A DNA stretch of 64,000 bases from Pararhodobacter zhoushanensis. GTDB taxonomy: Bacteria > Pseudomonadota > Alphaproteobacteria > Rhodobacterales > Rhodobacteraceae. Within the stretch, counting starts at the first letter, position 1, and each line of letters begins with the position of its first letter. The notes below the pieces were generated by a model that saw only the letters and a program-made list of their open reading frames with translations, did not search any database and had not been told where the DNA came from. Position numbers and translations under genes: made by a program. Below are positions 8,444 to 33,561 of this stretch, in pieces. The stretch spans positions 124,001 to 188,000 of the forward strand of contig NZ_REEZ01000007.1 of the NCBI RefSeq assembly GCF_003990445.1. Direction: 5' to 3'.

Positions 8444-9142
8444 ATGACCCAGTATCTGTTTACACCCGCGCCCGTGCGCAGCCTCAAGGTGCTGGGGCAG
8501 GCGGCCGAATATCCCGTGTCGCGCATCTTCTGCGTGGGCCGCAACTATGAGGCGCACGCCGCCGAAATGGGCGGCACCGTGGACCGCGAGGCGCCGTGGT
8601 ACTTCACCAAATCGGCGGTCTCGGCGGTGTGTCTGTCGGGCGAAACACGGCCCTATCCGCCGGGCACCTCGGATTTCCACTATGAGATGGAGCTGGTCGT
8701 CGCTGTCGGTGACGCCGTGTTCAAGGCCGATCTGGCGCAGGCCGAGGCCGCGATCTTCGCCTATGGCTGCGGGCTGGACATGACGCGCCGTGACCGCCAG
8801 CAGGACGGCAAGGATAACCGCCGCCCGTGGGATCTGGGCAAGGATGTCGAGGGTTCGGCGGTGCTGACCACGCTGACCCCGGCGGCAGGCTTCGCGCTGG
8901 CCGGGCGGCGCATCCATCTGGAGGTGAACGGCATCACCAAACAGGACGCGACGCTGGACGATATGGTCTGGTCGCCCGCCGAGGTCATCAGCCACCTGTC
9001 GAACTACTACCATCTGCAACCGGGCGATATCATCCTCACCGGCACGCCCGCAGGCGTCGGCCCGGTCGTGGCCGGGGATGCGATCACCGGCGGTATCGAC
9101 GGGCTCGAGCCGATCAGCCTGACGCTGGGGGCCGCCGAATGA
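8444..9142 (+). CDS. nagK: Fumarylacetoacetate hydrolase family protein, probable fumarylpyruvate hydrolase
   Basis: This is a 232-residue FAH-family hydrolase. Motifs are IFCVGRNYEAHAAEMG, the metal-binding DFHYEMELVVAVG (E-x-E) and YGCGLDMTRRDRQ. The C-terminal stretch is GDIILTGTPAGVGPV. The short length fits fumarylpyruvate hydrolase (fumarate plus pyruvate from fumarylpyruvate, last step of the gentisate pathway) rather than the roughly 420-residue tyrosine-pathway FAH. It overlaps the zeta-class isomerase gene by 4 bp (ATGA), the usual pairing. No gentisate 1,2-dioxygenase lies in the window. Confidence 0.82.
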   Translation: MTQYLFTPAPVRSLKVLGQAAEYPVSRIFCVGRNYEAHAAEMGGTVDREAPWYFTKSAVSAVCLSGETRPYPPGTSDFHYEMELVVAVGDAVFKADLAQAEAAIFAYGCGLDMTRRDRQQDGKDNRRPWDLGKDVEGSAVLTTLTPAAGFALAGRRIHLEVNGITKQDATLDDMVWSPAEVISHLSNYYHLQPGDIILTGTPAGVGPVVAGDAITGGIDGLEPISLTLGAAE

Positions 9143-9783
9143 TGCGGTTTCACGGCTATTTCCGCAGCTCTTCCAGCTATCGTTGCCGCATTGCCTTCAA
9201 CCTCAAGGGCCTGACGCCCGAATTTGTCCCGGTGCATTTGGTCAAGGATGGCGGGCAGCAGAAATCGGCAGCGTACCGCGCGCTGAACCCGCAAGGGCTG
9301 GTGCCAACGCTTGAGGTGGACGGTCTGGTGCTGACCCAATCGCCCGCGATTCTGGAATGGCTGGACGAGACGCATCCCGAGCCGCGCCTGCTGCCGCAGG
9401 ATGCGGCAGAGCGGGCGGCGGTGCGGGCTTTCTGCGCGGTGATCGCGTGCGAAATCCACCCGCTGCAGAACCTTCGGACCTTGCAGTATCTTGAGGCTGC
9501 TTATGGTCAGGGCCCGGATGGCAAAGAGGCCTGGTGCCAGCGCTGGATCGGCGATGGTCTGGCCAGTTGTGAGGCCTTGCTGGCCAAGCGCGCGCCCACC
9601 CGCTTCGCCTTTGGCGACGCGCCGGGGATGGCCGAGATCTATCTGATTCCTCAGTTGTTTTCGGCAAAACGCTTCAAGGTTGATACCAGCGCCATGCCCC
9701 GCCTCACCGAGATCGCCGCCGCCTGCGACACACACCCTGCCTTTGCGGCGGCGCATCCGTCGCAACAGCCGGATGCCGAGTAA
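9139..9783 (+). CDS. maiA: Zeta-class GST: maleylpyruvate / maleylacetoacetate isomerase
   Basis: This is a 214-residue glutathione-S-transferase-fold protein with the zeta-class N-terminal motif in the form FRSSSSYRCRIAFNLKG (usually SSCSWRVRIAL). It carries the glutathione-binding Q-S-P-AILEWLDE and the C-terminal helical domain with EIHPLQNLRTLQYL. It isomerises maleylpyruvate (or maleylacetoacetate) to the fumaryl form used by the hydrolase encoded just upstream. Two consecutive ATGs occur at 9139 and 9142. The first overlaps the upstream stop and is preferred. The SSC cysteine is replaced by Ser. Confidence 0.85.
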   Translation: MMRFHGYFRSSSSYRCRIAFNLKGLTPEFVPVHLVKDGGQQKSAAYRALNPQGLVPTLEVDGLVLTQSPAILEWLDETHPEPRLLPQDAAERAAVRAFCAVIACEIHPLQNLRTLQYLEAAYGQGPDGKEAWCQRWIGDGLASCEALLAKRAPTRFAFGDAPGMAEIYLIPQLFSAKRFKVDTSAMPRLTEIAAACDTHPAFAAAHPSQQPDAE

Positions 9784-9896
9784 CCAAGAACCGGGTTTAT
9801 GCAAAAAATAGCACAAACTTATGCCCGGGAGCGAAATTAGTATTCGCCAGAAACGACGACTTGTGCCAACAAGTATTGGCAACAAAATGCTTCTTG

Positions 9897-9920
9897 TGCA
9901 ATCTGATGCAAGATAGTGCC
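9897..9920 (+). promoter_or_regulatory. Triple 10-bp-phased TGCA repeat (BoxR-type operator) upstream of TRAP genes
   Basis: TGCA (9897-9900), TGCA (9907-9910) and TGCC (9917-9920) are separated by exactly six bases each, one helical turn per repeat. The same TGCA-N6-TGC pattern stands before boxR, boxC, the benzoate ligase and the 36.3-kb gene. It is 27 bp upstream of the DctP start. A second A-rich stretch with TGCA/AGCA 10 bp apart begins at 9800. BzdR/BoxR-family regulators of benzoate genes are known to use TGCA direct repeats. Placing this promoter in that regulon is inference. Confidence 0.6.
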
Positions 9921-9946
9921 ATCTGAGACTCTAGGGAGGAGATCAC

Positions 9947-10984
9947 ATGACGAAACGTACCACGCTTCTCGGCCTCATGGGGGCGACCGCGATTGCGGCG
10001 CTGACCACCGGGGCTGCGACGGCGCAGGAATTCACCCTGCGCATGCACCAGTTCCTGCCGGCGCAGGCCAACGTCCCGCGGGACGTGCTGGATGTCTGGG
10101 CTGACAACGTCGAGCGCGACTCGGGCGGCCGGATCGAGATCGAGCGTTACGCCTCGATGGCACTGGGCGGCACCCCGCCGGAACTGATGGATCAGGCGAT
10201 GGACGGTATTGCCGACATCATCTGGACGGTGAACGGCTACACGCCGGGCCGCTTCCCGCAGACCGAGGTGTTCGAACTGCCGTTCATGGTGTCGGATGCC
10301 CGCGCTGCCTCGTCCGCGCTGTGGACGATGTATGAAGAGCACATGCAGGAAGATTTCGCTGGCGTGCACATGCTGGCGATGTGGGTCCACGGTCCGGGCA
10401 TGTTCCACACCAACCGCCCGATCGTGCACCCTTCCGATCTGCAAGGGATGAAAATCCGCGGCGGTTCGCGCGGCGTGAACGATCTGCTGGCGCTGGTGGG
10501 TGCCGAAGCCGTCGGCCTGCCGGTGTCGGGCGTGCCCGAGGCTCTGTCGCGCGGCGTCATCGACGGCACGACGATCCCGTGGGAAGTGACCTCGGCGCTG
10601 CACGTGTCCGAACTGGTGCATAACCACACCGAAATCGAAGGCCCGGCGCTGTATGTGCTGACCTTCTCGTTCGCGATGAACCAGGACACCTACGATTCGC
10701 TGCCCGCGGATCTGCAGGAAGTCATCGACAACAACTCGGGGCTCGAGTTCTCGATCTTCGCGGGCGGCACGCAAGCCGATGCTGACGGTCCGGCGCGTCA
10801 GGTTGCTGTCGATCTGGGCAACAACATCGTCACCGTGTCCGAAGCCGATGCGCAGGAATGGGTGGACGTCGTCCAGCCGCTCTATGCAACCTGGGTTGAA
10901 GACATGAACGGTCGCGGCATCGATGGTCAGGCCCTGATCGACGAAGCCCGTCAGCTGATGTCTGACTACGAAGCTGCGCACTAA
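9947..10984 (+). CDS. dctP: TRAP transporter periplasmic solute-binding protein DctP
   Basis: This is a 345-residue DctP-family binding protein with a signal peptide (about residues 1-26, cleavage after ATA). It has the family's GMKIRGGSRGVNDLLALVGAE ligand-binding region, with the Arg that contacts the ligand carboxylate, and EVFELPFMVSDA upstream of it. It starts after a strong AGGGAGGAG ribosome site. Downstream are a mRNA-stabilising hairpin (11010-11036) and the permease genes. The operator-like TGCA repeats upstream suggest benzoate or a related aromatic carboxylate as ligand, which is inference. Confidence 0.93.
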   Translation: MTKRTTLLGLMGATAIAALTTGAATAQEFTLRMHQFLPAQANVPRDVLDVWADNVERDSGGRIEIERYASMALGGTPPELMDQAMDGIADIIWTVNGYTPGRFPQTEVFELPFMVSDARAASSALWTMYEEHMQEDFAGVHMLAMWVHGPGMFHTNRPIVHPSDLQGMKIRGGSRGVNDLLALVGAEAVGLPVSGVPEALSRGVIDGTTIPWEVTSALHVSELVHNHTEIEGPALYVLTFSFAMNQDTYDSLPADLQEVIDNNSGLEFSIFAGGTQADADGPARQVAVDLGNNIVTVSEADAQEWVDVVQPLYATWVEDMNGRGIDGQALIDEARQLMSDYEAAH

Positions 10985-11009
10985 GCGGCATCCCTCGCGC
11001 AAAGACGAT

Positions 11010-11036
11010 GGGGCGTGGCCGGACAGGCCGCGCCCC
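11010..11036 (+). other. Intercistronic hairpin between dctP and dctQ
   Basis: GGGGCGTGGCC (11010-11020) pairs with GGCCGCGCCCC (11026-11036), with one G-T wobble and a 5-base loop. No T-run follows, so it is more likely an attenuator or 3'-stabiliser keeping the binding protein in excess over the permease than a full terminator. A similar hairpin sits at the same place in the second TRAP operon (47020-47049). Confidence 0.6.
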
Positions 11037-11132
11037 TCTCACAAAAAAGACAACGGTTCGTGGACAGCGCAGACTGACCCGCGCGCCGCCCCCAAGACGC
11101 CGGATCAACCGGTCATCCAGGGAAGAGGGACA

Positions 11133-11726
11133 ATGTTCAAGACGATCCACAAGATCTTTTACGGGCTTGCCTGGACCATGGCAGTTGTCGGCGGCGCCTT
11201 GCTGACAGCGCTGGTGCTGATGCTTTGCCTGTCGATTCTGGGGCGCGAAGCATCGGATGTGCTGCATTCTGCCTGGATGCAGGAAAGCATGCCGGGTGTC
11301 GCGCGGTCGCTGCTGGATGCCGGGGTCGGACCGATCTTCGGCGATTATGAATTCCTTGTCGCAGGGCTGGCCGTCAGTGTGTTCTGCTTTCTGGGCTGGT
11401 GTCAGATCACCGCCGGGCACGCCACGGTGGATGTCTTCACCTCGGGCCTGAGCGACAACCAGCGCCGCTGGCTGCAAGTGTTCATCGAAATCCTTTTCGC
11501 GGGCGTTCTGGTTCTGATCGCGGTGCAGCTGTACGACGGGATGAACACCCTCGCCCGCCGCCGCTCGACCACCTTCCTGCTGCAATATCCCCTGTGGTGG
11601 AACTACGCCGCGGCCCTTGTGCCCGCCGTGATCACCGCCGCCATTGGCGTCTATGTGGCGCTTGTTCGCGTGGCCGAGGCGGTCACCAAACACTCCATCA
11701 TCTCAGCCGCCGGAGCAGACCATTGA
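11133..11726 (+). CDS. dctQ: TRAP transporter small permease DctQ
   Basis: This is a 197-residue protein with four predicted membrane helices. It shows the DctQ-type helix-2 region GWCQITAGHATVDVFTSGLSDNQRRW. A longer-than-usual loop (residues about 38-68, EASDVLHSAWMQESMPGV...) follows the first helix. It forms the membrane domain with the large subunit encoded immediately downstream, which starts at TTG overlapping the dctQ stop (TTGA). Confidence 0.9.
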   Translation: MFKTIHKIFYGLAWTMAVVGGALLTALVLMLCLSILGREASDVLHSAWMQESMPGVARSLLDAGVGPIFGDYEFLVAGLAVSVFCFLGWCQITAGHATVDVFTSGLSDNQRRWLQVFIEILFAGVLVLIAVQLYDGMNTLARRRSTTFLLQYPLWWNYAAALVPAVITAAIGVYVALVRVAEAVTKHSIISAAGADH

Positions 11727-13036
11727 GCAACCTCGCAATCGGTATCCTGTCCTTTCCGGTCCTGCTGGGGCTGATCTTTGTCCGCGTACCCATCGGCCTG
11801 TCGATGTTCGTAACCGGGTTCGGCGGTTACTGGATCATCGACGGCTCAAGCCGCATCCCCTTGGCGCAACTCAAGAATGCGGCCTATTCGACCTTTGCCA
11901 GTGAGGCGCTGGCTGTGGTGCCGATGTTCCTGCTGATGGGCTATTTCGCCACCATCGGCGGTATGTCCTCGGCGCTGTTCAAGGCCGCGGCGGCCTTTGT
12001 CGGGCACCGCAAGGGCGGCGTCGGCATTGCCGCTGTGGCGTCCTGCGCAGGCTTCGGCGCGATCTGTGGCTCGTCGCTGGCGACGGCGGCGACCATGGGC
12101 CGCGTCGCCCTGCCCGAGCTGAAACGCTTTGGCTACGACGGGGGCATCTCGACCGCGCTGCTGGCCGCCGGTGGGACGTTGGGGATCCTGATCCCGCCCT
12201 CGGTCGTGCTGGTGATCTACGCGATCCTTGCCGAGCAGAACATCGCCAAGCTGTTCCTTGCCGCCTTCGCGCCGGGCATTCTGGCCGCGATCGGCTACAT
12301 GATCGTCATCTCGATCTATGTGCGCCTTTACCCCAACCGCGCCGGCACCGCCGAGCGGATCAACTGGCCCGACCGATTCCGCCTGCTGCTGGGGGTCTGG
12401 CCCGTGTTGGTGGTGTTTCTGGCGGTGGTCGGCGGCATCTATGGCGGTGTCTTCACCCCGACCGAAGGCGCGGCCGTCGGCGCGCTGGGCACGGGTCTGA
12501 TCGCGCTGGCCAACCGCGGGCTGAACTTCCGGACTTTGCTGGAAAGCTTCACCTCGACCGCCCGCTCGACCGCGATGATCTTCTTCATTGTCTTTGGTGC
12601 GGCCTTCTATAACGGCTTTCTGGCGCGGACCCGCGTGCCGCAGGCGCTCAGCGAATGGGTGCTCAGCCTTGGGCTGGCCCCGGTGATGGTGCTGGTGCTG
12701 ATCCTGCTGATCTATCTGGCGCTGGGCTGTGTCATGGACAGCCTGTCCATGATCCTGCTGACCGTGCCGATCTTCTTCCCGATGATGATGGCGCTCGATT
12801 TCGGCATGTCGCAGGAACACGTCGCCATCTGGTTCGGCATTCTGGTGCTGATCGTGGTTGAGACCGGGTTGATAACACCGCCCGTGGGGATGAACCTGTT
12901 CATCATCAACGCCATGGACCGCGCGACGCCGATGACCTCGACTTACAAGGCGGTCTCGTTCTTTGTGCTGTCGGACATGGTGCGGGTGGCGATTCTGGTG
13001 GCCTTCCCGGCGATCACGCTGTTCTTGATACCGTGA
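11723..13036 (+). CDS. dctM: TRAP transporter large permease DctM
   Basis: This is a 437-residue, roughly 12-helix permease of the Na+-coupled DctM family. Motifs include GFGAICGSSLATAATMGRVALPELKRFGYD, GGTLGILIPPSVVLVIYAI and TEGAAVGA. The frame extends to 11399 inside dctQ. The start consistent with coupling is TTG 11723, giving MSNLAIGILSFPVLLG. A strong terminator follows at 13061. It works with the DctP and DctQ products just upstream. Confidence 0.92.
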   Translation: MSNLAIGILSFPVLLGLIFVRVPIGLSMFVTGFGGYWIIDGSSRIPLAQLKNAAYSTFASEALAVVPMFLLMGYFATIGGMSSALFKAAAAFVGHRKGGVGIAAVASCAGFGAICGSSLATAATMGRVALPELKRFGYDGGISTALLAAGGTLGILIPPSVVLVIYAILAEQNIAKLFLAAFAPGILAAIGYMIVISIYVRLYPNRAGTAERINWPDRFRLLLGVWPVLVVFLAVVGGIYGGVFTPTEGAAVGALGTGLIALANRGLNFRTLLESFTSTARSTAMIFFIVFGAAFYNGFLARTRVPQALSEWVLSLGLAPVMVLVLILLIYLALGCVMDSLSMILLTVPIFFPMMMALDFGMSQEHVAIWFGILVLIVVETGLITPPVGMNLFIINAMDRATPMTSTYKAVSFFVLSDMVRVAILVAFPAITLFLIP

Positions 13037-16167: not shown

Positions 16168-16229
16168 GGACGGTGCGGTGAAACCGCACCCTACAGCGGT
16201 GGCGTAGGGTGCGGTTCACCGCACCGTCC
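16168..16229. repeat. Inverted repeat, GGTGGGGTGAAACC family (copy 1, variant)
   Basis: The palindromic left part (GGACGGTGCGGTGAAACCGC...CCTAC) and its inverse copy (GTAGGGTGCGG...ACCGTCC) form a long stem around a short spacer. It is the diverged member of a four-copy family (20555, 27332, 28886) and stands 3' of the CoA ligase, so it may end that operon. Confidence 0.75.
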
Positions 16230-20554: not shown

Positions 20555-20643
20555 TGGTGGGGTGAAACCCCACCCTACCGGCACGCAAATCCGCGAGCGC
20601 TCACACCCTGGGCGCGTGTGTAGGGTGGGGTTTCACCCCACCA
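20555..20643. repeat. Inverted repeat, GGTGGGGTGAAACCCC family (copy 2)
   Basis: TGGTGGGGTGAAACCCCACC...TAC (20555-20578) and its inverse (20620-20643) flank a 41-base spacer. Each arm is itself palindromic. It occupies the whole gap between the convergent lpxK and cobQ genes and is probably a bidirectional terminator. Confidence 0.8.
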
Positions 20644-23503: not shown

Positions 23504-24526
23504 CTAAAGGTCCAGTGCCTGCGCGGCGAAGAGCACGCCGCCCTTGTCGGCGGGAAATCCGCAGGCCAGCACCGACAGCAGGTCGATCACGCCCGGTTCG
23601 GCCACCAGCCCCTTGGCGGCCCGCAACAGCGCCGCGCTGAGGCGCACGGCGATCTCGCTGTCGCTGATCGCGCGCGGGGTCACGCCCGCGAAATGCGCCT
23701 CTTCGCGGGCCAGATCCTCGACCAGCGGGTCGATCACCCGCCCGCCGCCGCCCGGATAGCGATACCAGCCGACGCCGCCCTTGCGGCCCAGCCGTCCCTC
23801 GGGGACCATGCGGTCCACGACCGGCAGGGTGTGGCCGGTCACGCGGTGACGGGCATAGGCGCGGTCCAGCCCGCGCAGATCCTGCGCGGCGCAGGGGCCC
23901 AGGGTGAAGCCGGCGGCCTCGGCCGCTGCGTCAACCTCCCACGGCGTTGAGCCTTCGAACACCAGCGCCTCGGCCTCGTCCTCGAGCGCTGCCACCAGCA
24001 CCGCCCCAAGGAAGCGCTCCACCCGCACCGGCAGCGCGCCCAGCCGCCGCGCGAGGCCCTCGGTGCGCAGGTCCGAGCCGGTGAGGATCTCGATCACCCC
24101 CTCGCCCGGCTGGTCGATCAGCGCGACCGGGGCGGGGAGTGAGGTGCGCAACGCGCCGGGGCCGAGGCTGGCCAGCAAGGCTCCCGGAGCCACCTGTGCC
24201 ATGCCCCCAAAGAGCGCCGCGCGCAGGCCCGCGTCGCTGCCTGAGGCCTCGATCACCGCCTCGGCCCCCTCAGCCGCAGCCGGGTCGGTGTGAAGGGAGA
24301 TGCCGGTGGCCTTGCCCGCCCGCGTCAGCGCGTCCTGCGCGCGTTCAACGTCCCAGTGGTCTTCCTCGATCAGCGCGACGGTAACGCCGGTGTCTGCCAA
24401 AGCGACCGCCAGTCCCAGCGCCTGCGGGCTGCCCCCGGCGACCGCCGCGCGGCTGAGCGCCAGCGGCGCGCCAATCGACAACCGTTCCCGCACCCGCGCC
24501 AGATGCGCCGCCCCCGGCGGGATCAA
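23504..24526 (-). CDS. 3-hydroxyacyl-CoA dehydrogenase-like protein lacking catalytic residues
   Basis: This 340-residue protein has a Rossmann-like N-terminal domain (AVAGGSPQALGLAVAL, then the acidic VALIEED) and a recognisable 3HCDH C-terminal domain (GRLGRKGGVGWYRYP). The family's SNTSS is SLGPGAL (about residues 120-126). HFFNP, which carries the catalytic His, is LIDQP (about 136-140). The glycine loop is irregular. It may be a pseudoenzyme or have another chemistry, although benzoyl-CoA breakdown does need 3-hydroxyadipyl-CoA dehydrogenase. It starts at TTG 24526, overlapping the boxR stop (TTGA). Confidence 0.75.
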   Translation of the reverse strand: MIPPGAAHLARVRERLSIGAPLALSRAAVAGGSPQALGLAVALADTGVTVALIEEDHWDVERAQDALTRAGKATGISLHTDPAAAEGAEAVIEASGSDAGLRAALFGGMAQVAPGALLASLGPGALRTSLPAPVALIDQPGEGVIEILTGSDLRTEGLARRLGALPVRVERFLGAVLVAALEDEAEALVFEGSTPWEVDAAAEAAGFTLGPCAAQDLRGLDRAYARHRVTGHTLPVVDRMVPEGRLGRKGGVGWYRYPGGGGRVIDPLVEDLAREEAHFAGVTPRAISDSEIAVRLSAALLRAAKGLVAEPGVIDLLSVLACGFPADKGGVLFAAQALDL

Positions 24527-25440
24527 TCCAGAAACCCGCGCTCGCGGATCAGGGCCAGCAGGTCAGCCTGCGACTGGGCCAGCGTGCGCCCGGTGGTGTC
24601 CAGCTTGGCGCGCGCCTGATCATAGAGCGCCTCGCGGCTGGTTAGGATGAATTTCAGCTGATCCATCGCCTCGGGGTTGCCCGCCATCGGGCGCATGTCA
24701 CCCTGTCCGCGCACCCGCGCCATATGCTCGGCCGGGCTGGCCTTGACCCAGACGGTGTGGAAATGCGCCAGCAGGTTTTTATAGGTCTCGGGCTCGGACA
24801 CGATGCCGCCCGCGACGGCCAGGATCATCGTGTCATGCGTGGCGACGATGCGGTTCATCGCCTGCGCTTCAAGGCGGCGGTAGCCTTCCTGCCCGTAAAA
24901 GGCCATCACCTCGTTGACCGGCATGCCCGCCTGATCCTCGATCTCGCGGTTGAGCTCGACAAAGGGAATGCCCAGCGTCTCACCAGCCAGCGCGCCCAGC
25001 GTGGATTTGCCCGCGCCGCGCAGGCCGATCAGGGCGATGCGGTGGCGGCGCGCGCTGGCCTCGGGCTGCGGGGCGAGCAGGTCGAGCACCTTGGCGCGCA
25101 CATCCGACGACGCGCCACGATAGAGCTCGCTCACCCGCATCGCGTCCGAGGTCCACGGGTCATCCTCACCGACCAGCCACTCGATCCGATGGTCCAGCGC
25201 ATCGGCGACGCGCTGCAAAAGCCCGATGGAGATATTGCCATCGCCCGCCTCAAGCAGCGCCAGATAGCGCGGCGAGACGCCCGAAACCTCGGACAGGACG
25301 CGGCGCGGGATGCCCTTGAGCTCGCGCGCCTTGCGCACCCGTTCGCCGACACGCAGGATCAGCCCGCGCACAGCGGCTTCGTCCCGCGTGGCGGAATCGG
25401 GGGACAGGGTTTCACCGCGAAAGTTCGTGATCTCTGACAT
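24523..25440 (-). CDS. boxR: BoxR transcriptional regulator (XRE HTH plus shikimate-kinase-like domain)
   Basis: This is a 305-residue regulator of the BzdR/BoxR family. The helix-turn-helix domain is at about residues 20-85 (VGERVRKARELKGIPRRVLSEVSG...). A shikimate-kinase-like effector domain follows from about residue 125, with P-loop LIGLRGAGKSTLG and AVAGGIVSEPE. In Azoarcus the paralogous proteins repress benzoate genes and are released by benzoyl-CoA. The start at ATG 25440 fits the family, although the frame opens at 25509. Two TGCA-type sites lie upstream. It heads a run with the dehydrogenase-like and amidohydrolase genes. Confidence 0.93.
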   Translation of the reverse strand: MSEITNFRGETLSPDSATRDEAAVRGLILRVGERVRKARELKGIPRRVLSEVSGVSPRYLALLEAGDGNISIGLLQRVADALDHRIEWLVGEDDPWTSDAMRVSELYRGASSDVRAKVLDLLAPQPEASARRHRIALIGLRGAGKSTLGALAGETLGIPFVELNREIEDQAGMPVNEVMAFYGQEGYRRLEAQAMNRIVATHDTMILAVAGGIVSEPETYKNLLAHFHTVWVKASPAEHMARVRGQGDMRPMAGNPEAMDQLKFILTSREALYDQARAKLDTTGRTLAQSQADLLALIRERGFLD

Positions 25441-25468
25441 CAGGGCGTCCGTTCGGGGCGTCCGTTTG

Positions 25469-25482
25469 GGAACAATAGTGCA
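25469..25482 (-). promoter_or_regulatory. BoxR-type site upstream of boxR (TGCACTATTG)
   Basis: On the minus strand TGCA-CTATTG-TTCC begins 42 bp upstream of the boxR start. TGCACTAT is shared with sites at 25542, 30767 and, as its inverse, at 30673. Location next to the boxR start suggests autoregulation. Confidence 0.55.
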
Positions 25483-25541
25483 CAAGCTTAGGGGATGCCC
25501 TGCGGTCAAACAATAGGCATCCTGCGAAACGCGCGGGCGAT

Positions 25542-25555
25542 TGCACTATTCTGCC
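25542..25555 (+). promoter_or_regulatory. BoxR-type site at the thioesterase 3' end (TGCACTATTC TGCC)
   Basis: TGCA-CTATTC-TGCC repeats the TGCA-N6-TGC pattern. It overlaps the stop codon of the thioesterase gene and lies about 100 bp upstream of boxR, so it could form a loop or an extended complex with the site at 25469. Confidence 0.55.
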
Positions 25556-25965
25556 GGGGGTTCCAGATGCTTGAGCACCAGCGCGCGCACGGCCTCGGGC
25601 GGCGGGGCTTTGCGGAACTGATCGGCGATGGTGAAGACGCAGACGAAACTGCCCTCAAAGCACACCACCCCGTCCTGCCGCCCGATCACCCGCCACGCAA
25701 CCGAGGTCTCGCCCAGCCGCGTCGGCGCGACGTCGCAGATCAGCCGGTGGCGGGGCGTGATCGGGTGGCGGAAATCGAGGCTCATGTGCACGAAGGGCGT
25801 GCCGAAATTGTGGTCCATCTCCATCTGGAACCAGCCGCCGCCGAAGTGATGCTCCCACCAGCCGTTGATCGCGTCCAGCGCCCAGGCCGGGATGCGCGCG
25901 GTATAGGCGATCTTGGCCGGGTCGCAGTCACCCCAGGTGACGCGGATCTCATGGCTGTAGGGCAT
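25546..25965 (-). CDS. Hotdog-fold acyl-CoA thioesterase (4-hydroxybenzoyl-CoA thioesterase family)
   Basis: This is a 139-residue hotdog thioesterase of the 4HBT type, with RVTWGDCDPAKIAYTARIPAWALDAIN containing the conserved catalytic Asp of the WGDCDP motif. In a box cluster it probably hydrolyses benzoyl-CoA or dead-end CoA esters to free CoA. A TTG lies just upstream at 25968, but ATG 25965 shares a base with the boxA stop (TGATG) and is preferred. It is last in the boxC-boxB-small protein-boxA series. Confidence 0.88.
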   Translation of the reverse strand: MPYSHEIRVTWGDCDPAKIAYTARIPAWALDAINGWWEHHFGGGWFQMEMDHNFGTPFVHMSLDFRHPITPRHRLICDVAPTRLGETSVAWRVIGRQDGVVCFEGSFVCVFTIADQFRKAPPPEAVRALVLKHLEPPAE

Positions 25966-27158
25966 CAATAGGTCTCGACGTGATAACGTCCCTCGTCGCG
26001 CATGGCGTCGCGGGTTGCCTCCCAGCCAAGGCCGGTGCTTTCGGCGATGTTTTTGAACGCCAGTTCCACGCCCTGCTCCATGCCGCGCAGACCGCAGATG
26101 TAGATATGCGTCTTGGGATCGGCCAGCAGATTGGCGACGACTTCCTGCTCGACCATCATGCGGTCCTGTACGTATTCCTTTTCCACGCCCGGAATGCGGC
26201 TGAACACCAGATGCTTTTTCAGCAGACGGTCGGGCACTTTGTTCAAGGGGCCGAAATAGGGCAGGCTGTCGGGCGCGCGGGCCCCAAAGAACATGACCAT
26301 ATCGCCGGTGGCCCCGGCGGCGGCGCGCTGGCGGCGCATGGTGAAGCCGCGGAAGGGGGCAGCCCCGGTGCCGGTGCAGACCATCAGCAGGCGGGCGGCG
26401 GGGTCTTCGGGCATGAGGAAGGTCGCGCCGAAGGGGCCGGTGACCTTGACCTCATCGCCGATCTTCAGATCACAGACGTAGTTTGAGCACAGGCCCTGTT
26501 CCTCACGCTTCACGGTCAGCGAGAGGTTGTTGAAATTCGGCCGCTCGCCGTCGCGCGGGCTGGAAACTGAATAGAGCCGGGGCAGATGCGGCTTGCCGTT
26601 GGCGTCCACACCGGGGGGAATGATGCCGATCGACTGGCCTTCGAGCACCGGAAAGGGCTGGCCGCCGAACTCAAGGATCAGGTGGCGCACGTCCGAGCCG
26701 CTCTCGGCGCTGGTCAGGCGATAGTTGCCCTGTACCTTGGCGATGGCGGGCTTGCCGAGGTTGTACATGTTGACCGTCGGCTTGGCCGCGCTGGCCGGAG
26801 CCTTGGATTTGCCGCCAGCGCCCTTGTGGGCTTCGGCCAGCAGGGCCTCCATCGCGTCATCCAGCGCCTCGACGCTGCCGCCCTGCGCGGCAGAGGCACC
26901 AACGTCGCCCTGCGCGGGCAGGTCTTCCCAGCTGAACTGTTCTTCCAGAGTGTAGGGCGTGTTCACCACCCGCCATTCGTCGATCGAGCCGGTCGGGCAG
27001 ACCGGGATGCAATCCATGCAGAAATCGCATTTCTCGGCATCGACGACGACGTTGTTGTCGTCGTGGGTGATTGCCTCGACCGGGCAGGTCATCTCGCAGG
27101 TATAGCAGCGGATGCAGATTTCCGGGTCGATCAGGTGCTGTTTGAGGGGCTTGTTCAT
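25965..27158 (-). CDS. boxA: Benzoyl-CoA epoxidase reductase component BoxA
   Basis: This is a 397-residue flavo-iron-sulfur protein passing electrons from NADPH to BoxB. Two [4Fe-4S] cysteine sets (CIRCYTCEMTCP and CDFCMDCIPVCP, residues about 16-55) are followed by a variable Ala-rich linker. A ferredoxin-NADP-reductase domain follows (RLYSVSSPRDGE, GPFGATFLMP, MVCTGTGAAPFRGF, C-terminal RYHVETY). The start at ATG 27158 overlaps the stop of a 51-codon gene as ATGA. The frame itself opens at 27236. Confidence 0.96.
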   Translation of the reverse strand: MNKPLKQHLIDPEICIRCYTCEMTCPVEAITHDDNNVVVDAEKCDFCMDCIPVCPTGSIDEWRVVNTPYTLEEQFSWEDLPAQGDVGASAAQGGSVEALDDAMEALLAEAHKGAGGKSKAPASAAKPTVNMYNLGKPAIAKVQGNYRLTSAESGSDVRHLILEFGGQPFPVLEGQSIGIIPPGVDANGKPHLPRLYSVSSPRDGERPNFNNLSLTVKREEQGLCSNYVCDLKIGDEVKVTGPFGATFLMPEDPAARLLMVCTGTGAAPFRGFTMRRQRAAAGATGDMVMFFGARAPDSLPYFGPLNKVPDRLLKKHLVFSRIPGVEKEYVQDRMMVEQEVVANLLADPKTHIYICGLRGMEQGVELAFKNIAESTGLGWEATRDAMRDEGRYHVETY

Positions 27159-27310
27159 GCGCGCGGAGTCCGGGGGTGCAGCACCGTTTCGGGAAGGAAG
27201 GCCAGCTCGAAGCGGCTCCAGCAGGGGCCGGTACAATCAGGGCAGTCGAGGCAGACCATGTGCTTGGCCGGCGTGGTGGGACGGGGCAGAGCGGTGCGGG
27301 TGGCGGGCAT
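27155..27310 (-). CDS. 51-residue Cys-rich protein translationally coupled to boxA
   Basis: I do not recognise a family. It starts at ATG 27310 behind a strong GGAGGA ribosome site (5-base spacer) and stops at TGA 27155-27157, overlapping boxA as ATGA. The protein has a Pro/Thr-rich N-terminal third, then HMVCLDCPDCTGPCW, four cysteines spaced C-x2-C-x2-C-x3-C (residues 20, 23, 26, 30), and a tail FELAFLPETVLHP. The Cys set could bind zinc or an Fe-S cluster. Position between boxB and boxA suggests a role in oxygenase assembly or electron transfer. The function is unknown, and coding status rests on ribosome site, overlap and composition. Confidence 0.72.
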   Translation of the reverse strand: MPATRTALPRPTTPAKHMVCLDCPDCTGPCWSRFELAFLPETVLHPRTPRA

Positions 27311-27331: not shown

Positions 27332-27393
27332 GGTGGGGTGAAACCCCACCCTACGGGCGGCGCGGGTGTGTAGGGTGGGGTTCAACCCCACCC
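27332..27393. repeat. Inverted repeat, GGTGGGGTGAAACCCC family (copy 3), inside the box operon
   Basis: GGTGGGGTGAAACCCC...CTAC (27332-27354) and its inverse (27370-27393) form a strong stem between boxB and the small Cys-rich gene. As it is inside an operon, it more likely stabilises upstream mRNA than ends transcription. Confidence 0.8.
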
Positions 27394-27401
27394 TGATCGT
27401 C

Positions 27402-28853
27402 TCAAGCCATGTAGAGCTTCACATACTCAAAGTCACCGGGCTTGTTGTCGATCCCGACTTTCGGGGCCGAGATCCAGCTGGCGTATTGCCCCGGCTCGGT
27501 GACCGGCTTCATCAGCGACTGGATGAAGTCACCATCCGCGCGGGTCGGCAGCCACTCGTTGCGGCGCGCGTCGTATTCCGCGCCGGTCAGCAGCGATCCA
27601 TCGGGGGCAAAGGGCTTGCCCGCGAAGACGCCGATCTGGCGGTGGAAGGCTTCATGCGGCAGCTTCAGCTCGAACTGGACGCCGTTCTTCTCGATGATCT
27701 TGTTCCAGCGCCCGATGCCGCCCGCCGCGTCGCGGGTGTAATCGTCGCGCAGGCGCATGTTGATCGCGGTCAGCGCGGGCACTTCCTTGCGCACCAGCTG
27801 ACCGTCTTCAAAGTTCCACACCGGGTAGGTGTCGTTGTGCAGCTTGTGGTCGTCGGTCAGGCGGTGCTCCATGTAGCGCCCCTTGATGCCCGAGTTGAAC
27901 GCGTTGGCCGCGTTGGTCGAGACTTCCTGACCGAACAGATCCAGCGACAGCGTGTAATGCAGGTTCAGCTTTTTCTGGATCGTCGGCAGGTCGATGACCC
28001 CCAGCGCGCGGATTTTCTCGATCTCGTAGGGATCGTCGATGCCGTGCTCTTTCATCACCTGACAGGTGCGCTCGATCGTGCGGCCCACGCCGGTTTCGCC
28101 CACGAACATGTGGTGCGCTTCCTCGGTCAGCATGAACCGGCAGGTGCGGCTGAGCGGGTCAAAGCCCGATTGCGCCAGACTTTCCAGCTGCATCTTGCCG
28201 TCGCGGTCGGTGAAATAGGTGAACATGAAGAACGACAGCCAGTCGGGCGTCTCTTCGTTGAAGGCCCCCAGCATGCGTGGCGCTTCTTCCGAGCCCGAGG
28301 AGCGGATCAAGAGATCGTCGGCTTCTTCGCGGCCATCCTTGCCGAAGTATTTCTGCAGCAGATACACCATCGCCCAGAGGTGACGGCCCTCTTCCACGTT
28401 CACTTGGAACAGGTTGCGCAGGTCATAGAGCGACGGCGCGGTCAGACCGAGGAAACGCTGCTGCTCGACCGAGCCCGGCTCGGTATCGCCCTGAATGACG
28501 ATCATCCGCTTGAGCATGTTGCGGTACTCGCCCGGCACTTCCTGCCAGGCGGGCTGGCCGGCGTGCTCGCCACAGGGGATCAGGCGACCCTCGACCTCGG
28601 GCGCCAGCAGGATGCCCCAGCGGTATTCGGGCATCTTCACATAGTCGAATTTGGCCCAGCCCTTGGGGTCGACCGACACGGCCGTGCGCAGGTAGACATC
28701 CGATTTCTGGAACTGCTGCGGGATCAGGTCATTCCACCAGTTGATGTAACCGGGGTGCCATTTCTCCAGCGCCTTGAGGACGCGCTTGTCGTTGGACAGG
28801 CCGACGTTGTTGGGGATCTGCGTGTCATAGCTGACATTGATGAGGTCGATCAT
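27402..28853 (-). CDS. boxB: Benzoyl-CoA 2,3-epoxidase oxygenase component BoxB
   Basis: This is a 483-residue diiron epoxidase that converts benzoyl-CoA with O2 to 2,3-epoxybenzoyl-CoA. Carboxylate-histidine ligand motifs are visible: NVEEGRHLWAMVY and FMLTEEAHHMFVGE (ExxH pairs in a four-helix core). The N-terminus (MIDLINVSYDTQIPNNVGL) is typical of BoxB. A GGAGGAACCCC ribosome site precedes ATG 28853. It is expressed with boxC upstream and boxA downstream, separated from each by a repeat element of the same family. Confidence 0.96.
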   Translation of the reverse strand: MIDLINVSYDTQIPNNVGLSNDKRVLKALEKWHPGYINWWNDLIPQQFQKSDVYLRTAVSVDPKGWAKFDYVKMPEYRWGILLAPEVEGRLIPCGEHAGQPAWQEVPGEYRNMLKRMIVIQGDTEPGSVEQQRFLGLTAPSLYDLRNLFQVNVEEGRHLWAMVYLLQKYFGKDGREEADDLLIRSSGSEEAPRMLGAFNEETPDWLSFFMFTYFTDRDGKMQLESLAQSGFDPLSRTCRFMLTEEAHHMFVGETGVGRTIERTCQVMKEHGIDDPYEIEKIRALGVIDLPTIQKKLNLHYTLSLDLFGQEVSTNAANAFNSGIKGRYMEHRLTDDHKLHNDTYPVWNFEDGQLVRKEVPALTAINMRLRDDYTRDAAGGIGRWNKIIEKNGVQFELKLPHEAFHRQIGVFAGKPFAPDGSLLTGAEYDARRNEWLPTRADGDFIQSLMKPVTEPGQYASWISAPKVGIDNKPGDFEYVKLYMA

Positions 28854-28885: not shown

Positions 28886-28961
28886 GGTGGGTTGAAAACC
28901 CACCCTACAGAGTGACGGGACCGGCAGCGCCGAGGCCCGTAGGGTGGGGTTTCACCCCACC
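28886..28961. repeat. Inverted repeat, GGTGGGGTGAAACCCC family (copy 4), inside the box operon
   Basis: GGTGGGTTGAAAACCC...CTAC (28886-28908) and GTAGGGTGGGGTTTCACC... (28939-28961) form the arms. It fills the 116-bp gap between boxC and boxB. A second copy follows boxB, so that gene is bracketed by these elements. Confidence 0.8.
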
Positions 28962-28969
28962 GAGGCGTG

Positions 28970-30628
28970 CTACACGCGCTGCATGTTGTAATCGCCGCGC
29001 ACGCCCGAGCCATAGCGCTGCAAAGCGCCATCGGGGCCGGTCGCGTTCGGCCGGATGAAGATCCAGTTCTGCCACGCGGTCAGGCGGCCAAAGATCCGGG
29101 TTTCCATGGTTTCCGGCCCGGCAAACCGCAAGTTGGCTTCCATGCCGGTCATCGCGTCGGGGCTGAACGAGGCGCGCTCTTCCATGAAGATGCGGATCTC
29201 GTCTTCCCAGTCTATGTCGTCATAGGCCTCGGTCACCAGCCCCAGCTCCATCGCATCGTCGCTTTCCAGCGCCTCGCCGATCTTTGCCTGCAACGTGTCC
29301 ACCGTTTCCGGCTCACCCAGAAAGCGGGTTTGCAGGCGGGTCAGGTCATTGCCCATCGGGAAAGGGCCGAAATTGGCATCCGACAGCGTGACCTTTGCCA
29401 CCGGGCGGTTGTCGCCGTCGAACTCGCCTTCCATCATATAGGCACGGTCCGAGGCCCAGAGCAGTTCCGCCAGGAACCCAGCAAAGCACGAGCCATTCTC
29501 GACCAGCGCCACCAGCGAGCGCGATGTCATGTCGACGCGTTTCAGAACGCGCTTCCAATAGGTCAGGATTTCGTTGACCAGCCAGTCGCTTTTGTTGGCC
29601 AGCAGGAAGGCCTCATGCGCCAGCACGGCTTCAGAGTCGCCCTGCGTGCGGAACACCACCAGCCCCAGCTCCATCTCGTTGAGACGCAGTTGCAGGATCG
29701 CATCGTCGAATTCGCGCGCCAGACGCAGCATCCAGCCCTGATCGCCCTGCGCATGCAGCGCCTCCAGCGAGGCGGGCACGTCCTGATCCGGGCCATTCAG
29801 CGTGATGGTGGCCTTGCGACCCTCGGCGTCCACCGCAACCTCGACCAGCGAATAATGGATCGAGCCATCCTCGGCGAAAGTCCGGTTCAGCGGGGTCAGC
29901 GCGATGCCCTTGCCCGTCGCCTTGTCCGAGGCCGCCGCGAATTCGCGTGCCCGCTCGGCCACCGTCTCATCGAATTTGGAATTGGCGATGACCTCATCGA
30001 CCAGACGCCAGTCTTTCGCCCGCTTGCCCTTCACGCCCTCTTCCAGCGTGCAGAACACATCGGCCAGATCACGGCGCACCTTGCGCTTGTCTGTCACGCG
30101 GGTCAGCCCGCCGGTGCCCGGCAGCACGGCGAGCAGCGGCACTTCGGGCAGCGACACGGCCGAGGCGCTGTCGTCGGTCAGCATGATATGGTTGCACGCC
30201 AGCGCCAGCTCATAGCCGCCGCCCGCGCAGGCCCCCTTGACCGCTGCAATATATTTCTGGCCGCTGTCCGCTTCGGCAGCCTCGAAGGTATTGCGCGTCT
30301 CGTTGGTGAATTTGCAGAAATTCACCTTGTGCGCGTGGCTGGCGCCGCCCAGCATGCGGATGTTGGCCCCGGCGCAGAACACCTTGTCCTTGGCCGAGCG
30401 CATCACCACGACCTTGACCTCGGGATGCTCGAACCGCATGCGCTGCACCACATCGGCCAGCTCGATATCGACGCCCAGATCGTAGCTGTTCAGCTTGAGC
30501 TGGTAGCCGTCGAACAGACCGGCGTTTTCGTCCACGTCCATGAACAGGTTCGCAACCGCGCCGTCATACTCCACGCGCCAATGGCGATAGCGCGACGGGT
30601 CCGTCTGGAAGTCGATTCGCTGGGTCAC
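28970..30628 (-). CDS. boxC: Benzoyl-CoA-dihydrodiol lyase BoxC (2,3-epoxybenzoyl-CoA dihydrolase)
   Basis: This is a 552-residue protein with two crotonase-like regions. It opens epoxybenzoyl-CoA hydrolytically, releasing formate and 3,4-dehydroadipyl-CoA semialdehyde. Visible features are the CoA/oxyanion region VFCAGANIRMLGGASHAHKVNF, KGACAGGGYELALACN, and the C-terminal WQNWIFIRPNATGPDGAL. The start is GTG 30628 (VTQRIDFQTDP) behind GGGAGGACCCCCA. The frame itself opens at 30679. Two clusters of TGCA-N6-TGC sites lie upstream. Confidence 0.95.
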   Translation of the reverse strand: MTQRIDFQTDPSRYRHWRVEYDGAVANLFMDVDENAGLFDGYQLKLNSYDLGVDIELADVVQRMRFEHPEVKVVVMRSAKDKVFCAGANIRMLGGASHAHKVNFCKFTNETRNTFEAAEADSGQKYIAAVKGACAGGGYELALACNHIMLTDDSASAVSLPEVPLLAVLPGTGGLTRVTDKRKVRRDLADVFCTLEEGVKGKRAKDWRLVDEVIANSKFDETVAERAREFAAASDKATGKGIALTPLNRTFAEDGSIHYSLVEVAVDAEGRKATITLNGPDQDVPASLEALHAQGDQGWMLRLAREFDDAILQLRLNEMELGLVVFRTQGDSEAVLAHEAFLLANKSDWLVNEILTYWKRVLKRVDMTSRSLVALVENGSCFAGFLAELLWASDRAYMMEGEFDGDNRPVAKVTLSDANFGPFPMGNDLTRLQTRFLGEPETVDTLQAKIGEALESDDAMELGLVTEAYDDIDWEDEIRIFMEERASFSPDAMTGMEANLRFAGPETMETRIFGRLTAWQNWIFIRPNATGPDGALQRYGSGVRGDYNMQRV

Positions 30629-30672
30629 TGGGGGTCCTCCCTGGGGTCCGTCATGCTGCCTGAGTGTTGAGA

Positions 30673-30686
30673 TGCACAATAGTGCC
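30673..30686 (+). promoter_or_regulatory. BoxR-type site, boxC promoter proximal (TGCACAATAGTGCC)
   Basis: TGCA-CAATAG-TGCC lies 45 bp upstream of the boxC start. Read on the other strand it gives GGCACTATTGTGCA, the same TGCACTAT-type core seen at 25469. A further TGCT follows at 30694. Confidence 0.6.
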
Positions 30687-30756: not shown

Positions 30757-30780
30757 TGCATTTTAATGCACTATACTGCG
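30757..30780 (+). promoter_or_regulatory. BoxR-type triple repeat, boxC promoter distal
   Basis: TGCA-TTTTAA-TGCA-CTATAC-TGCG has its repeats at 30757, 30767 and 30777, exactly one helical turn apart and in the same orientation. It overlaps the stop codon of the DUF309 gene and is about 130 bp upstream of boxC. Confidence 0.65.
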
Positions 30781-31202
30781 CATTCCGTCTGAACCTGCTC
30801 CCGCAGAGCTGACACCTGCCCCACGCTCACCCCCATCAGCGATTCGCGGCCGCTGCTGTAAGCTTCCCGCAATGCCGCCTCGGCCAGCGCCAGAATGCGC
30901 CGCGCCGCGCCCTCGCGGCCCATCCGGCGCTTCAATCCTGCGTTTGCCAGCTGGATCAACCCGCGCAGCAGATGCCGCTCGGCGCTGGCCGGGGGCAGGG
31001 CGGCCCAGACGGGTTCCCAGAACTCGTGCGCCTCCCAGTAGTACCGCCGCGCGAAGGCGTCGAACCCGGCCAGAAACGCCGGGGATTGCGCAAGCTCATC
31101 GGCCGCCAAACCGTCCAGCCCCGCAATCAAGCCTGCGAAAAACGCCTCATCCGGGCGCGCGTTGCGGCCCGGATGATGGGGTTCTGGCGGTAAAGGGGTC
31201 AC
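30771..31202 (-). CDS. DUF309 domain protein
   Basis: This is a 143-residue helical protein with the DUF309 core: FARRYYWEAHEFWEPVWAALPPASAERHLLRGLIQLANAGLKRRMG, in which His and Glu residues (EAHEFWE) are conserved. The biochemical role of this family is unknown to me. It starts at GTG 31202, overlapping the stop of the upstream hydrolase gene (GTGA), so it is co-translated with the benzoate-CoA ligase operon. Other ATG candidates are not nearby. Membership in the benzoate operon is the only functional hint. Confidence 0.82.
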   Translation of the reverse strand: MTPLPPEPHHPGRNARPDEAFFAGLIAGLDGLAADELAQSPAFLAGFDAFARRYYWEAHEFWEPVWAALPPASAERHLLRGLIQLANAGLKRRMGREGAARRILALAEAALREAYSSGRESLMGVSVGQVSALREQVQTECAV

Positions 31203-32014
31203 GCGCGTTCGGGCTGCGCCGCCTCATGCGCGAGCAGGCGCTGGGTGAAGGCACGCACGGCACCGAGCACCGCTTCGGGCTGATCGAACTGCGGCGAGTG
31301 GCGGCAATCGTCGGGCACCAGCACGTCCACCGGGGCGTAGGAGCGGCTGACGACCTCGTCCACCTGCCTGAGCGTGCCGTACTGGTCGTCCTTGCCTTGA
31401 ATCACCAGGGCCGGGACGCGCAGGAAGTCGATCACCTCGCTGACATCCCAAGCCGCGAAATCCGGGTTCAGCCAGCCGTCGTTCCAACCCTTGAAGGTCG
31501 CCGCCGGATCGCGGTGATATTTGCCCATCTTCTCGGCCATATCCCCTTGCGCGAAAGCCTCGCGCGCCAGCCGGATCTGCGCCAGACCCATCTCTTCGGT
31601 GAAGAAATGCGGTGCCATCAGCACCAGCCCGCGCACGCGGAAATCGACCACGCGCCCGGCATACTCTGCCGCGATCGTCGCACCATCGGAATGGCCCATC
31701 AGGATGACATGCTCAGCCCCGATCGCATCCAGTACCTCAGGCAGCACATCGACCGCGTGGCGGGTCATGTAATCGACCGGGAAGGGCAGCTCGGCTGCAT
31801 CCGAATGGCCGTAATTCGCCCGCGAATAGGCGAAGACAGGCAACCCGGTGGCCTGCGACAACCGCTCGGGGAAATCGCGCCACAGCGCCAGACATCCCAG
31901 TCCTTCGTGCAGCAGCACGATCACCGGACCTGCGTCAAACGCCCCCCAGGCGGCCCACTCCAACCGTTTGCCGCCTGCGGTTACCCAGCCCTTGCCCTCT
32001 GCCCAGTTGATCAT
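31199..32014 (-). CDS. Alpha/beta hydrolase in the benzoate-CoA ligase operon
   Basis: This is a 271-residue alpha/beta hydrolase. The oxyanion loop is LLHEGLGCLALWRDFP, the nucleophile is in VILMGHSDGATIAAEYA (Ser in GHSDG), and the acid/His region is near DDCRHSPQFDQPE. Similar hydrolases occur with benzoate or benzoyl-CoA clusters, and it may hydrolyse an ester or a CoA thioester side product. It overlaps the ligase stop by 4 bp (ATGA) and the DUF309 start by 4 bp. The substrate is not determinable from sequence. Confidence 0.87.
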   Translation of the reverse strand: MINWAEGKGWVTAGGKRLEWAAWGAFDAGPVIVLLHEGLGCLALWRDFPERLSQATGLPVFAYSRANYGHSDAAELPFPVDYMTRHAVDVLPEVLDAIGAEHVILMGHSDGATIAAEYAGRVVDFRVRGLVLMAPHFFTEEMGLAQIRLAREAFAQGDMAEKMGKYHRDPAATFKGWNDGWLNPDFAAWDVSEVIDFLRVPALVIQGKDDQYGTLRQVDEVVSRSYAPVDVLVPDDCRHSPQFDQPEAVLGAVRAFTQRLLAHEAAQPERA

Positions 32015-33561
32015 TCTGCCGCCTCGACATCACGCAATTTGAAACGCTGGATCTTGCCGGTCGCCGTTTTCGGCAATTCATCCACAACCGTCACCCAGCG
32101 CGGGTATTTCCACATGCCGATCTTGCCCTTCACATGCTCTTTCAGCGCCTCGCCATCGACCGAGGCCCCCTCTTTCAGCACGATGAACGCCGCCGGTTTC
32201 AGCAGATCCTGCTCATCGGCCCGCGCCACAACGGCGGCTTCCAGGATGCCGGGGAACTCGACCAGGGCCTGTTCCACCTCGAACGGCGAGACCCAGATGC
32301 CCGAGACCTTGAACATATCGTCCGTGCGCCCGCAGTAGACATAGCGCCCGTCCTTGGTGCGCTCGTATTTGTCGCCGGTGCGGGTCCAGTGGCCCTGAAA
32401 CGTGCTCAGGCTCTTGTCGCGGCGGTTCCAGTAACCCTCGGCGCTGGACGGGCCACGCACCAGCAACTCGCCGACCTCATCGGCGGCCACGTCTTCGTCA
32501 TGCTCATCGACCAGCCGCACCTCATAGCCCGGCACCGCCACGCCCGAGGTGCCATAGACGATGTCGCCGGGGCGGTTGGACAGGAAGATGTGCAGCATCT
32601 CGGTCGAACCGACGCCATCGACGATTTCGGCCCCCCACAGCTTTTCCCAGCGCTGGCCGATGTCGCGCGGCAGCGCCTCGCCAGCCGACGTGCACAGGCG
32701 GATGCAATGATCGGGCTTGGTGCCCTGCTTTTCCTGCGCGGCAACCAGCGCGGCGTAGAGGGTCGGCACGCCGCAGAAGATCGTCGGCTTTTCCTTGGCC
32801 ATGATCGCGAAAACCCCGTCAGGCGTGGGCCGCCCGCCGAACAACACCGCCGTCGCGCCGACGGACATGGGAAAGGACATGCCGTTTCCCAGACCATAGG
32901 CGAAGAAAAGCTTGGCGACGGAAAACACCGTGTCATCCTCGCGGATGCCCACCACCTGCGCGCCAAAGGTGTCGGCGGTCGCTTTCAGGCTGGAATGGAT
33001 ATGCCGCACGCCCTTTGGCATGCCGGTCGAGCCCGAGGAGTAGAGCCAGAACGCCAGCTCATCGCCGCCCGCCTCAACGGTTTCCACCGGCTCGGCCCCA
33101 TCCATGAAGGTGTCGAAGCTGACGCATTCCGTCCCGTCGCAAACCCGCTCGCCGCCGATCACCACCACGGCGCGCAGAAAGCGGTTGCCATCGATGGCGG
33201 GTTTGACCGCGTCCCACATCTGTTCGGACACCACCAGAATCGACGCGCGGCTGTCGTTCAGGATGGCCTCATAGACCGAGGCGCTGAGCAGCGTGTTCAG
33301 CGGCACCGGGATCGCGCCGGCCTTGAGCGCGCCCCAGAACACCACCGGAAATTCCAGCTGGTCGCGCACGATCATCGCGATGCGTTCCTCGCGCCGGACG
33401 CCGTGGCGATAAAGCGCGCCCGCGAAACTGGCGCTTTGCGCGGCAAGGTCGCCATAGGTCAGGCTGCGCTGCGCACCGTCTGCTTCGCGAAACGCGGTCT
33501 TGGCTGCCCGGCCCTCGTCCAGGTGGCGGTCCACGAAATAGACGGCTGCGTTCTCGTTCAT
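32011..33561 (-). CDS. badA: Benzoate-CoA ligase
   Basis: This is a 516-residue AMP-forming ligase that activates benzoate with CoA and ATP, the first step of the box pathway. The phosphate loop is LYSSGSTGMPKGVRH. The acceptor-site blocks FSVAKLFFAYGLGNG and DGVGSTEMLHIFLSN are characteristic of benzoate-CoA ligases. Adenylate motif TGDKYERTKDGRY and the catalytic Lys in LPKTATGKIQRFKLR follow. It heads the ligase-hydrolase-DUF309 operon. Its promoter region contains two TGCA-N6-TGCA pairs and is shared with the divergent quinone-reductase gene. Confidence 0.95.
   Translation of the reverse strand: MNENAAVYFVDRHLDEGRAAKTAFREADGAQRSLTYGDLAAQSASFAGALYRHGVRREERIAMIVRDQLEFPVVFWGALKAGAIPVPLNTLLSASVYEAILNDSRASILVVSEQMWDAVKPAIDGNRFLRAVVVIGGERVCDGTECVSFDTFMDGAEPVETVEAGGDELAFWLYSSGSTGMPKGVRHIHSSLKATADTFGAQVVGIREDDTVFSVAKLFFAYGLGNGMSFPMSVGATAVLFGGRPTPDGVFAIMAKEKPTIFCGVPTLYAALVAAQEKQGTKPDHCIRLCTSAGEALPRDIGQRWEKLWGAEIVDGVGSTEMLHIFLSNRPGDIVYGTSGVAVPGYEVRLVDEHDEDVAADEVGELLVRGPSSAEGYWNRRDKSLSTFQGHWTRTGDKYERTKDGRYVYCGRTDDMFKVSGIWVSPFEVEQALVEFPGILEAAVVARADEQDLLKPAAFIVLKEGASVDGEALKEHVKGKIGMWKYPRWVTVVDELPKTATGKIQRFKLRDVEAAE

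Follow-up and report, generated by a model that had tools for sequence, protein, structure and literature searches.

Semidoxins and protodoxin PD1 are half-ferredoxins, and the natural ones are described as proteins of about 30 aa from anaerobes (JACS Au 2025, PMC12648291). The small gene analyzed here, designated SM, encodes a protein that resembles them in being short and in containing one C-x2-C-x2-C-x3-C set. However, SM proteins are 47–74 residues long instead of about 30 residues, are weakly predicted to be helical and come from Rhodobacterales, not from anaerobes. In addition, proline almost never follows the fourth cysteine in SM (1/42 and 2/40 members of two alignments). The N-terminal 2[4Fe-4S] ferredoxin domain of BoxA, the product of the neighbouring gene, has the same cysteine spacing as SM, but BoxA has two motifs, usually with proline, and SM has one. 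SM shares a C-[IV]-G-C-x2-C-x3-C stretch, about 17 residues long, with PsaC and the Fer4 ferredoxins, although SM has no second half: a single cluster motif was found in the SM protein studied and in its aligned relatives, in contrast to the two of the 2[4Fe-4S] ferredoxins (Fer4). A search of the open-access PMC literature (titles and abstract openings) revealed no article on a small cysteine protein in box clusters.

The window, i.e., the whole analyzed stretch of 64,000 nucleotides from Pararhodobacter zhoushanensis, contains a box cluster with the gene order ligase – hydrolase – DUF309 – boxC – boxB – SM – boxA – 4HBT – boxR. The hydrolase is of the alpha/beta type, and the minus strand around SM also carries a gene for a 3HCDH protein. 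The features of the cluster are as follows:

24523..25509, minus strand: BoxR-type regulator (HTH plus shikimate-kinase-like; NF006015, 382 bits)
25546..25968, minus strand: 4HBT_2 thioesterase-like protein, downstream of boxA (PF13279)
25965..27158, minus strand: boxA, with two C-x2-C-x2-C-x3-C-P motifs N-terminally (TIGR03224, 530 bits; cut-off 459)
27155..27158, minus strand: ATGA, 4-nt overlap of the SM stop and the boxA start (boxA ATG at 27158–27156)
27155..27310, minus strand: SM, small four-cysteine gene (51 aa plus stop)
27319–27314, minus strand: GGAGGA ribosome-binding site of SM, 3 nt before the ATG, read directly
27332..27392, no strand: two GGTGGGGTTNNACCCCACC palindromes in the boxB–SM gap (pattern search)
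27402..28853, minus strand: boxB (TIGR03225, 907 bits)
28970..30616, minus strand: boxC (TIGR03222, 962 bits for the ORF 28970–30679; tblastn match 28973–30616)
30771..31202, minus strand: DUF309 protein of the box operon (PF03745)
32011..33561, minus strand: benzoate-CoA ligase family protein (TIGR02262, 719 bits)

The original prediction had described a 51-residue frame with a GGAGGA site between boxB and boxA, an ATGA overlap with boxA and four cysteines at residues 20–30, and each of these features was found again. SM lies on the minus strand, which the original prediction did not specify, and extends from an ATG at 27310–27308 to a TGA at 27157–27155, and this stop codon shares bases with the boxA ATG. 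Translation of the ORF gives MPATRTALPRPTTPAKHMVCLDCPDCTGPCWSRFELAFLPETVLHPRTPRA, in which the cysteines are arranged as C20-x2-C23-x2-C26-x3-C30. Neither Pfam nor NCBIfam contained a family naming this protein, and no Pfam or NCBIfam model of their own was present among the matches of the 42 and 40 aligned SM relatives.

REP-like GGTGGGGTTNNACCCCACC palindromes were observed in the window at 16172–16190, 20556–20642, 27332–27392 and 28886–28961, including the boxC–boxB and boxB–SM gaps. With up to two mismatches allowed, there were 12 strand-matches at seven window sites versus a mean of 0.00 in 100 shuffles. The plus strand at 8444–13021, about 14 kb from SM, carries FAH-like and TRAP P/Q/M genes that are relatives of genes located near SM in other genomes.

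The distribution of SM was evaluated in genomes of the window's family. When the single protein was searched against 295 genomes, 26 of them had a match at E ≤ 0.01; 13 of these match loci, including the window's own, have boxB or boxA adjoining, and the remaining ones were judged by eye to be chance frames or box-less relatives. Of 290 family genomes, 57 (the window's genome included) have a boxA gene scoring over the cut-off, and the region upstream of it was inspected in all 57. An intact SM frame with the cysteine set was found in the boxB–boxA gap of 38 of them, and the 4-nt ATGA overlap with boxA was seen in 29 of these 38 gap copies, including that of the window. The 38 include the copy at L056, which keeps the cysteines and is otherwise divergent. 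It is the recurrence of the frame, the start, the four cysteines and the overlap in other genomes that places SM beyond chance. One genome (G009) has a frame-broken SM in the gap, which may be due to assembly errors, and two (G213 and G080) have SM beside boxB with boxA on another contig. The incomplete genome G220 showed boxB–SM plus only a 59-position boxA match. Where boxA lies elsewhere, SM stays with boxB. No SM was found in 16 of the 57 boxA genomes; the boxB–boxA gap is at most 119 nt in 15 of these and 211 nt in one.

Some further features of these clusters were observed. In the box cluster of G009 (L090/L047), boxC also matches in two pieces, and the cluster of G080 (L144 and L147) is split into boxB–SM–4HBT–boxR on one contig and ligase–hydrolase–boxC–boxA on the other. 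A TRAP transporter is often located upstream of SM-bearing box clusters. A DUF309 relative is present in 24 of 30 box-linked loci and also near SM in the box-less loci of G266 (L086) and Marinibacterium (L206).

A profile built from 42 SM members matched 49 of the 290 family genomes, namely 41 of the 57 boxA genomes compared with 8 of the 233 others, the latter including the doubtful G001, the broken G143 and the incomplete G220. The match in G001 (E 2.7e-4) covers only profile positions 16–39 and is probably not a family member. The tally made by hand (boxA and SM, 41; boxA only, 16; SM only, 8; neither, 225) gave a Fisher p value of 1.1e-28, which is uncorrected for relatedness. On a quick BoxA tree of 69 rows, in which G009, G080 and G213 were labelled as SM-bearing and of whose 66 inner branches 25 are weak, the presence and absence of SM required 10 changes versus 21.9 in shuffles, so its distribution is clustered. 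SM occurs in both main family subclades of this tree, which points to an old gene that was lost several times.

In other families of alphaproteobacteria, all 12 box loci examined lacked both a four-cysteine frame before boxA and a profile match; in 11 of them boxA was over the cut-off, and L148 is not long enough for boxB to be seen. A scan of 337 class-wide genomes gave five weak profile hits besides the window's own, none of them convincing. None of the five was counted as an SM relative: three (L093, L096 and L097) are by eye one ORF type, aldo/keto reductase-like with ferredoxin motifs, L094 is a 45-aa frame and L095 contains no such motif. Plasmids and viral contigs contained no SM match. 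On a Sulfitobacter plasmid (NZ_CP072616.1, 10292–10996), a gene annotated as a hypothetical protein matches boxA partially, over 57% of the query.

A single scan of named genomes revealed 53 SM loci, 30 of which adjoin boxB and/or boxA and 23 of which adjoin none of boxC, boxB and boxA. By NCBI ranks, 26 loci belong to Roseobacteraceae, 24 to Paracoccaceae and three to Alphaproteobacteria only; since the named loci are spread over Roseobacteraceae and Paracoccaceae, the family is referred to as Rhodobacterales. A search for boxA at E ≤ 1e-80 in 14 genomes of the 23 box-less loci found none in 11, a result only as good as the assemblies; the three genomes with boxA belong to Mameliella, and in each of them a further SM copy lies directly upstream of this boxA. 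The boxB gene (E ≤ 1e-60) was absent from 15 of 16 SM-bearing genomes, namely 12 of the 23 plus G143, G217, G239 and G266, and the part of this result that concerns named loci is likewise only as good as the assemblies. The one genome with boxB was a Mameliella. In G143 (L145) the SM copy is frame-broken, and neither boxA nor boxB was matched. The broken copies of G009 and G143 may mean that SM is dispensable in places, or they may be assembly errors. Several genera retain SM without boxC, boxB and boxA, and in genomes that lack BoxA and BoxB the function of SM cannot depend on them.

A TRAP transporter lies upstream of SM in 19 of the 23 box-less loci, at a distance of about 2.8 kb in the four Mameliella loci, and is missing at L163, L191, L206 and L207. 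A YcaQ-like/LacI pair follows downstream in 18 of the 23, so the common arrangement is TRAP – SM – [4HBT] – YcaQ-like/LacI. The same pair is present in 18 of the 30 box-linked loci, and in the box-linked regions that were fetched, a TRAP transporter was found upstream of the ligase in six of eight and an FAH-like gene in three of eight. These shared outer genes indicate that SM of Leisingera, Sedimentitalea arenosa and others occupies the slot that is elsewhere flanked by box genes; copies of Ruegeria species are box-linked and those of Leisingera species are box-less. Among the Ruegeria carriers is R. pomeroyi strain SZCCDBG043 (L172). No neighbour gene was constant over the box-less SM loci. 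At L215 (G217, about 9945–10106) a box-less SM lies near genes that by eye resemble znuA, znuB and an HpcH-type aldolase, an environment unlike that of the other loci. The Mameliella loci L208, L209, L210 and L212 combine TRAP, SM and relatives of BoxR and 3HCDH without box genes; L208 also has SDR and AMP-ligase-like ORFs (by eye), and the three searched genomes of these loci have boxA with its own SM elsewhere.

In the SM family, a variable N-terminus, which often begins with M-x-I-x-R, is followed by the knot C-x2-C-x2-C-x-G-x-C, then by a probable helix and, ten residues after the last cysteine, by a conserved proline. The four cysteines are present in 42/42 and 40/40 members of the two alignments (A2 and A4), and the glycine and proline are kept in 41/42 and 40/40. 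The exception in the 42-member set is the divergent L056, which was left out of the 40-member alignment. Selection was estimated by the NG86 method on copies from the named-genome scan. Seven box-linked Ruegeria copies gave a pooled pN/pS of 0.22 and a median dN/dS of 0.14, and 11 box-less Leisingera-type copies, which include a Bugula symbiont record (L173) and a Rhodobacteraceae record (L185), gave 0.21 and 0.13; in two shifted frames of the same sets, pN/pS was 1.46–2.20. Broader, more saturated sets showed a median dN/dS of 0.33 (19 box-less copies) and 0.37 (30 box-linked copies, the window's included). Purifying selection is alike in box-less and box-linked copies, and SM is a real protein-coding gene under such selection, the dN/dS check proposed for it having come out in its favour. 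The conserved ATGA overlap would also be expected of a translated spacer or leader that only couples boxA translation and whose peptide is inert. However, selection at the amino acid level, the invariant cysteines and persistence without boxA make this explanation extremely improbable, and it is contradicted by the dN/dS of the box-less copies.

The original prediction had also proposed that SM, as a metal-binding accessory, would be a component of the box pathway. The operon link was supported, as seen from the association with boxA genomes and from the overlap, whereas a part dedicated to BoxA or BoxB was not. Nearly half of the named loci (23 of 53) are box-less, most of the searched genomes contained no boxA or no boxB, and G213, G080 and G220 keep SM with boxB while boxA lies elsewhere or is a short fragment. 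A dedicated accessory would bind BoxB (or BoxA) and help the diiron epoxidase to receive electrons or to assemble its cofactor, the box-less copies being relics or co-opted. We consider this unlikely: the presence of SM in most boxA genomes, the frequent overlap and its place beside boxB when boxA is elsewhere are all in agreement with it, but the similar purifying selection in box-less copies argues against plain relics, and 16 of the 57 family box genomes and all 12 outside box loci do without SM.

In order to characterize the cysteine motif, SM profiles were compared with PDB, and the best matches were PsaC-type [4Fe-4S] stretches (E 6e-5 to 7e-5). Pfam Fer4 models touched SM weakly (Fer4_2 in 14/42 members; best Fer4 E 0.0019), and most of the 25 NCBIfam families among the matches listed for SM relatives are iron-sulfur by name. 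One shuffle set of the 42 members, with Met1 and the four cysteines fixed, served as a control. The shuffle profile matched its best PDB iron-sulfur chain at E 4.7e-7, stronger than any chain matches SM, and Fer4_9 and Fer4_6 were touched by seven of 42 shuffles each versus two and three real members, respectively. The best Pfam E value was 8.3e-5 for the shuffles and 0.0019 for real SM. On the other hand, PsaC was matched by the shuffle profile at 0.035 versus 7e-5 for the real one, and Fer4_2 by three of 42 shuffles versus 14 of 42 real members. An iron-sulfur assignment was therefore not based on database hits alone, since Cys-fixed shuffles performed comparably, though PsaC and Fer4_2 favour real SM. 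The spacing of the SM cysteines is that of the [4Fe-4S] ferredoxin motif, and the likeness appears to lie largely in this spacing. Derivation of SM from a duplicated BoxA iron-sulfur domain likewise found no support: outside the cysteines, SM residues were no closer to the BoxA motifs than permuted ones (0/40 at p < 0.05), and the position-score test gave mean z values of −1.38 and −0.93 (40 members, short rows padded with Ala).

Modeling using AlphaFold2 led to models with low confidence (pLDDT 62–64 for both proteins), in which the window's SM contained a helix after the knot (residues 29–37), SM of R. pomeroyi also had one before it (residues 11–21), and no strands were present in either. 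A fold search of the first, weak SM model against PDB gave no match.

These results bear on the nature of the site. According to one explanation, SM is a half-ferredoxin ("semidoxin") that would carry electrons, with a [4Fe-4S] cluster bound by its single motif in a monomer or a homodimer. The exact ferredoxin spacing with four invariant cysteines, the advantage over shuffles for PsaC and Fer4_2 and the names of the listed NCBIfam families are consistent with such a protein. However, the one Cys-fixed shuffle set reaches other iron-sulfur proteins as well or better, no strands are predicted, proline after the fourth cysteine is rare, and the known natural semidoxins are shorter and from anaerobes (PMC12648291); this makes the explanation rather unlikely. 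We give still less credence to the view that Rhodobacterales keep SM as a natural one-motif iron-sulfur protein and functional half-ferredoxin, which would carry electrons or sense O2 or the redox state in the uptake and activation of aromatic acids and whose place in the locus would be independent of the box genes that now flank it.

Alternatively, SM could contain a structural zinc site and, without a redox role, act in regulation or bind RNA or protein as a small Zn-Cys4 adaptor. Four invariant cysteines, the helices modeled close to the knot and the retention of SM in genomes without the redox enzymes BoxA and BoxB fit this assumption. Small-protein zinc sites, however, usually pair two separated CxxC knuckles, and zinc-type families are hardly present among the SM matches: Anti-TRAP, a zinc protein, touches one of 42 members (E 0.04). 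A zinc adaptor is thus also unlikely.

Taking these data together, we tentatively favour the assumption that SM is a small protein that binds metal through its four cysteines and acts as an accessory or sensor of the whole aromatic-acid locus. It is the four invariant cysteines that suggest metal binding, and they would hold one metal centre, either [4Fe-4S] or Zn. SM would then serve the locus for aromatic-acid uptake and activation as a small adaptor or sensor, which is our default reading of the protein. The main effect of its location between boxB and boxA in box clusters would be to set the dose of SM. SM may take part in electron transfer to BoxB in these clusters, but this would not be its general role; the strong boxB–SM linkage could reflect a box role in those clusters and another role elsewhere. 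The function of SM is probably a separate one, and not that of a component dedicated to the benzoate pathway.

A so far unnamed small protein under selection is added to a known aerobic aromatic pathway. The position in the operon alone would mislead as to its role, since genomes in which these pathway genes were not detected retain SM as well. If SM binds an iron-sulfur cluster, it would be a candidate half-ferredoxin beyond the thermophilic anaerobes, which are the range of such proteins so far according to PMC12648291.
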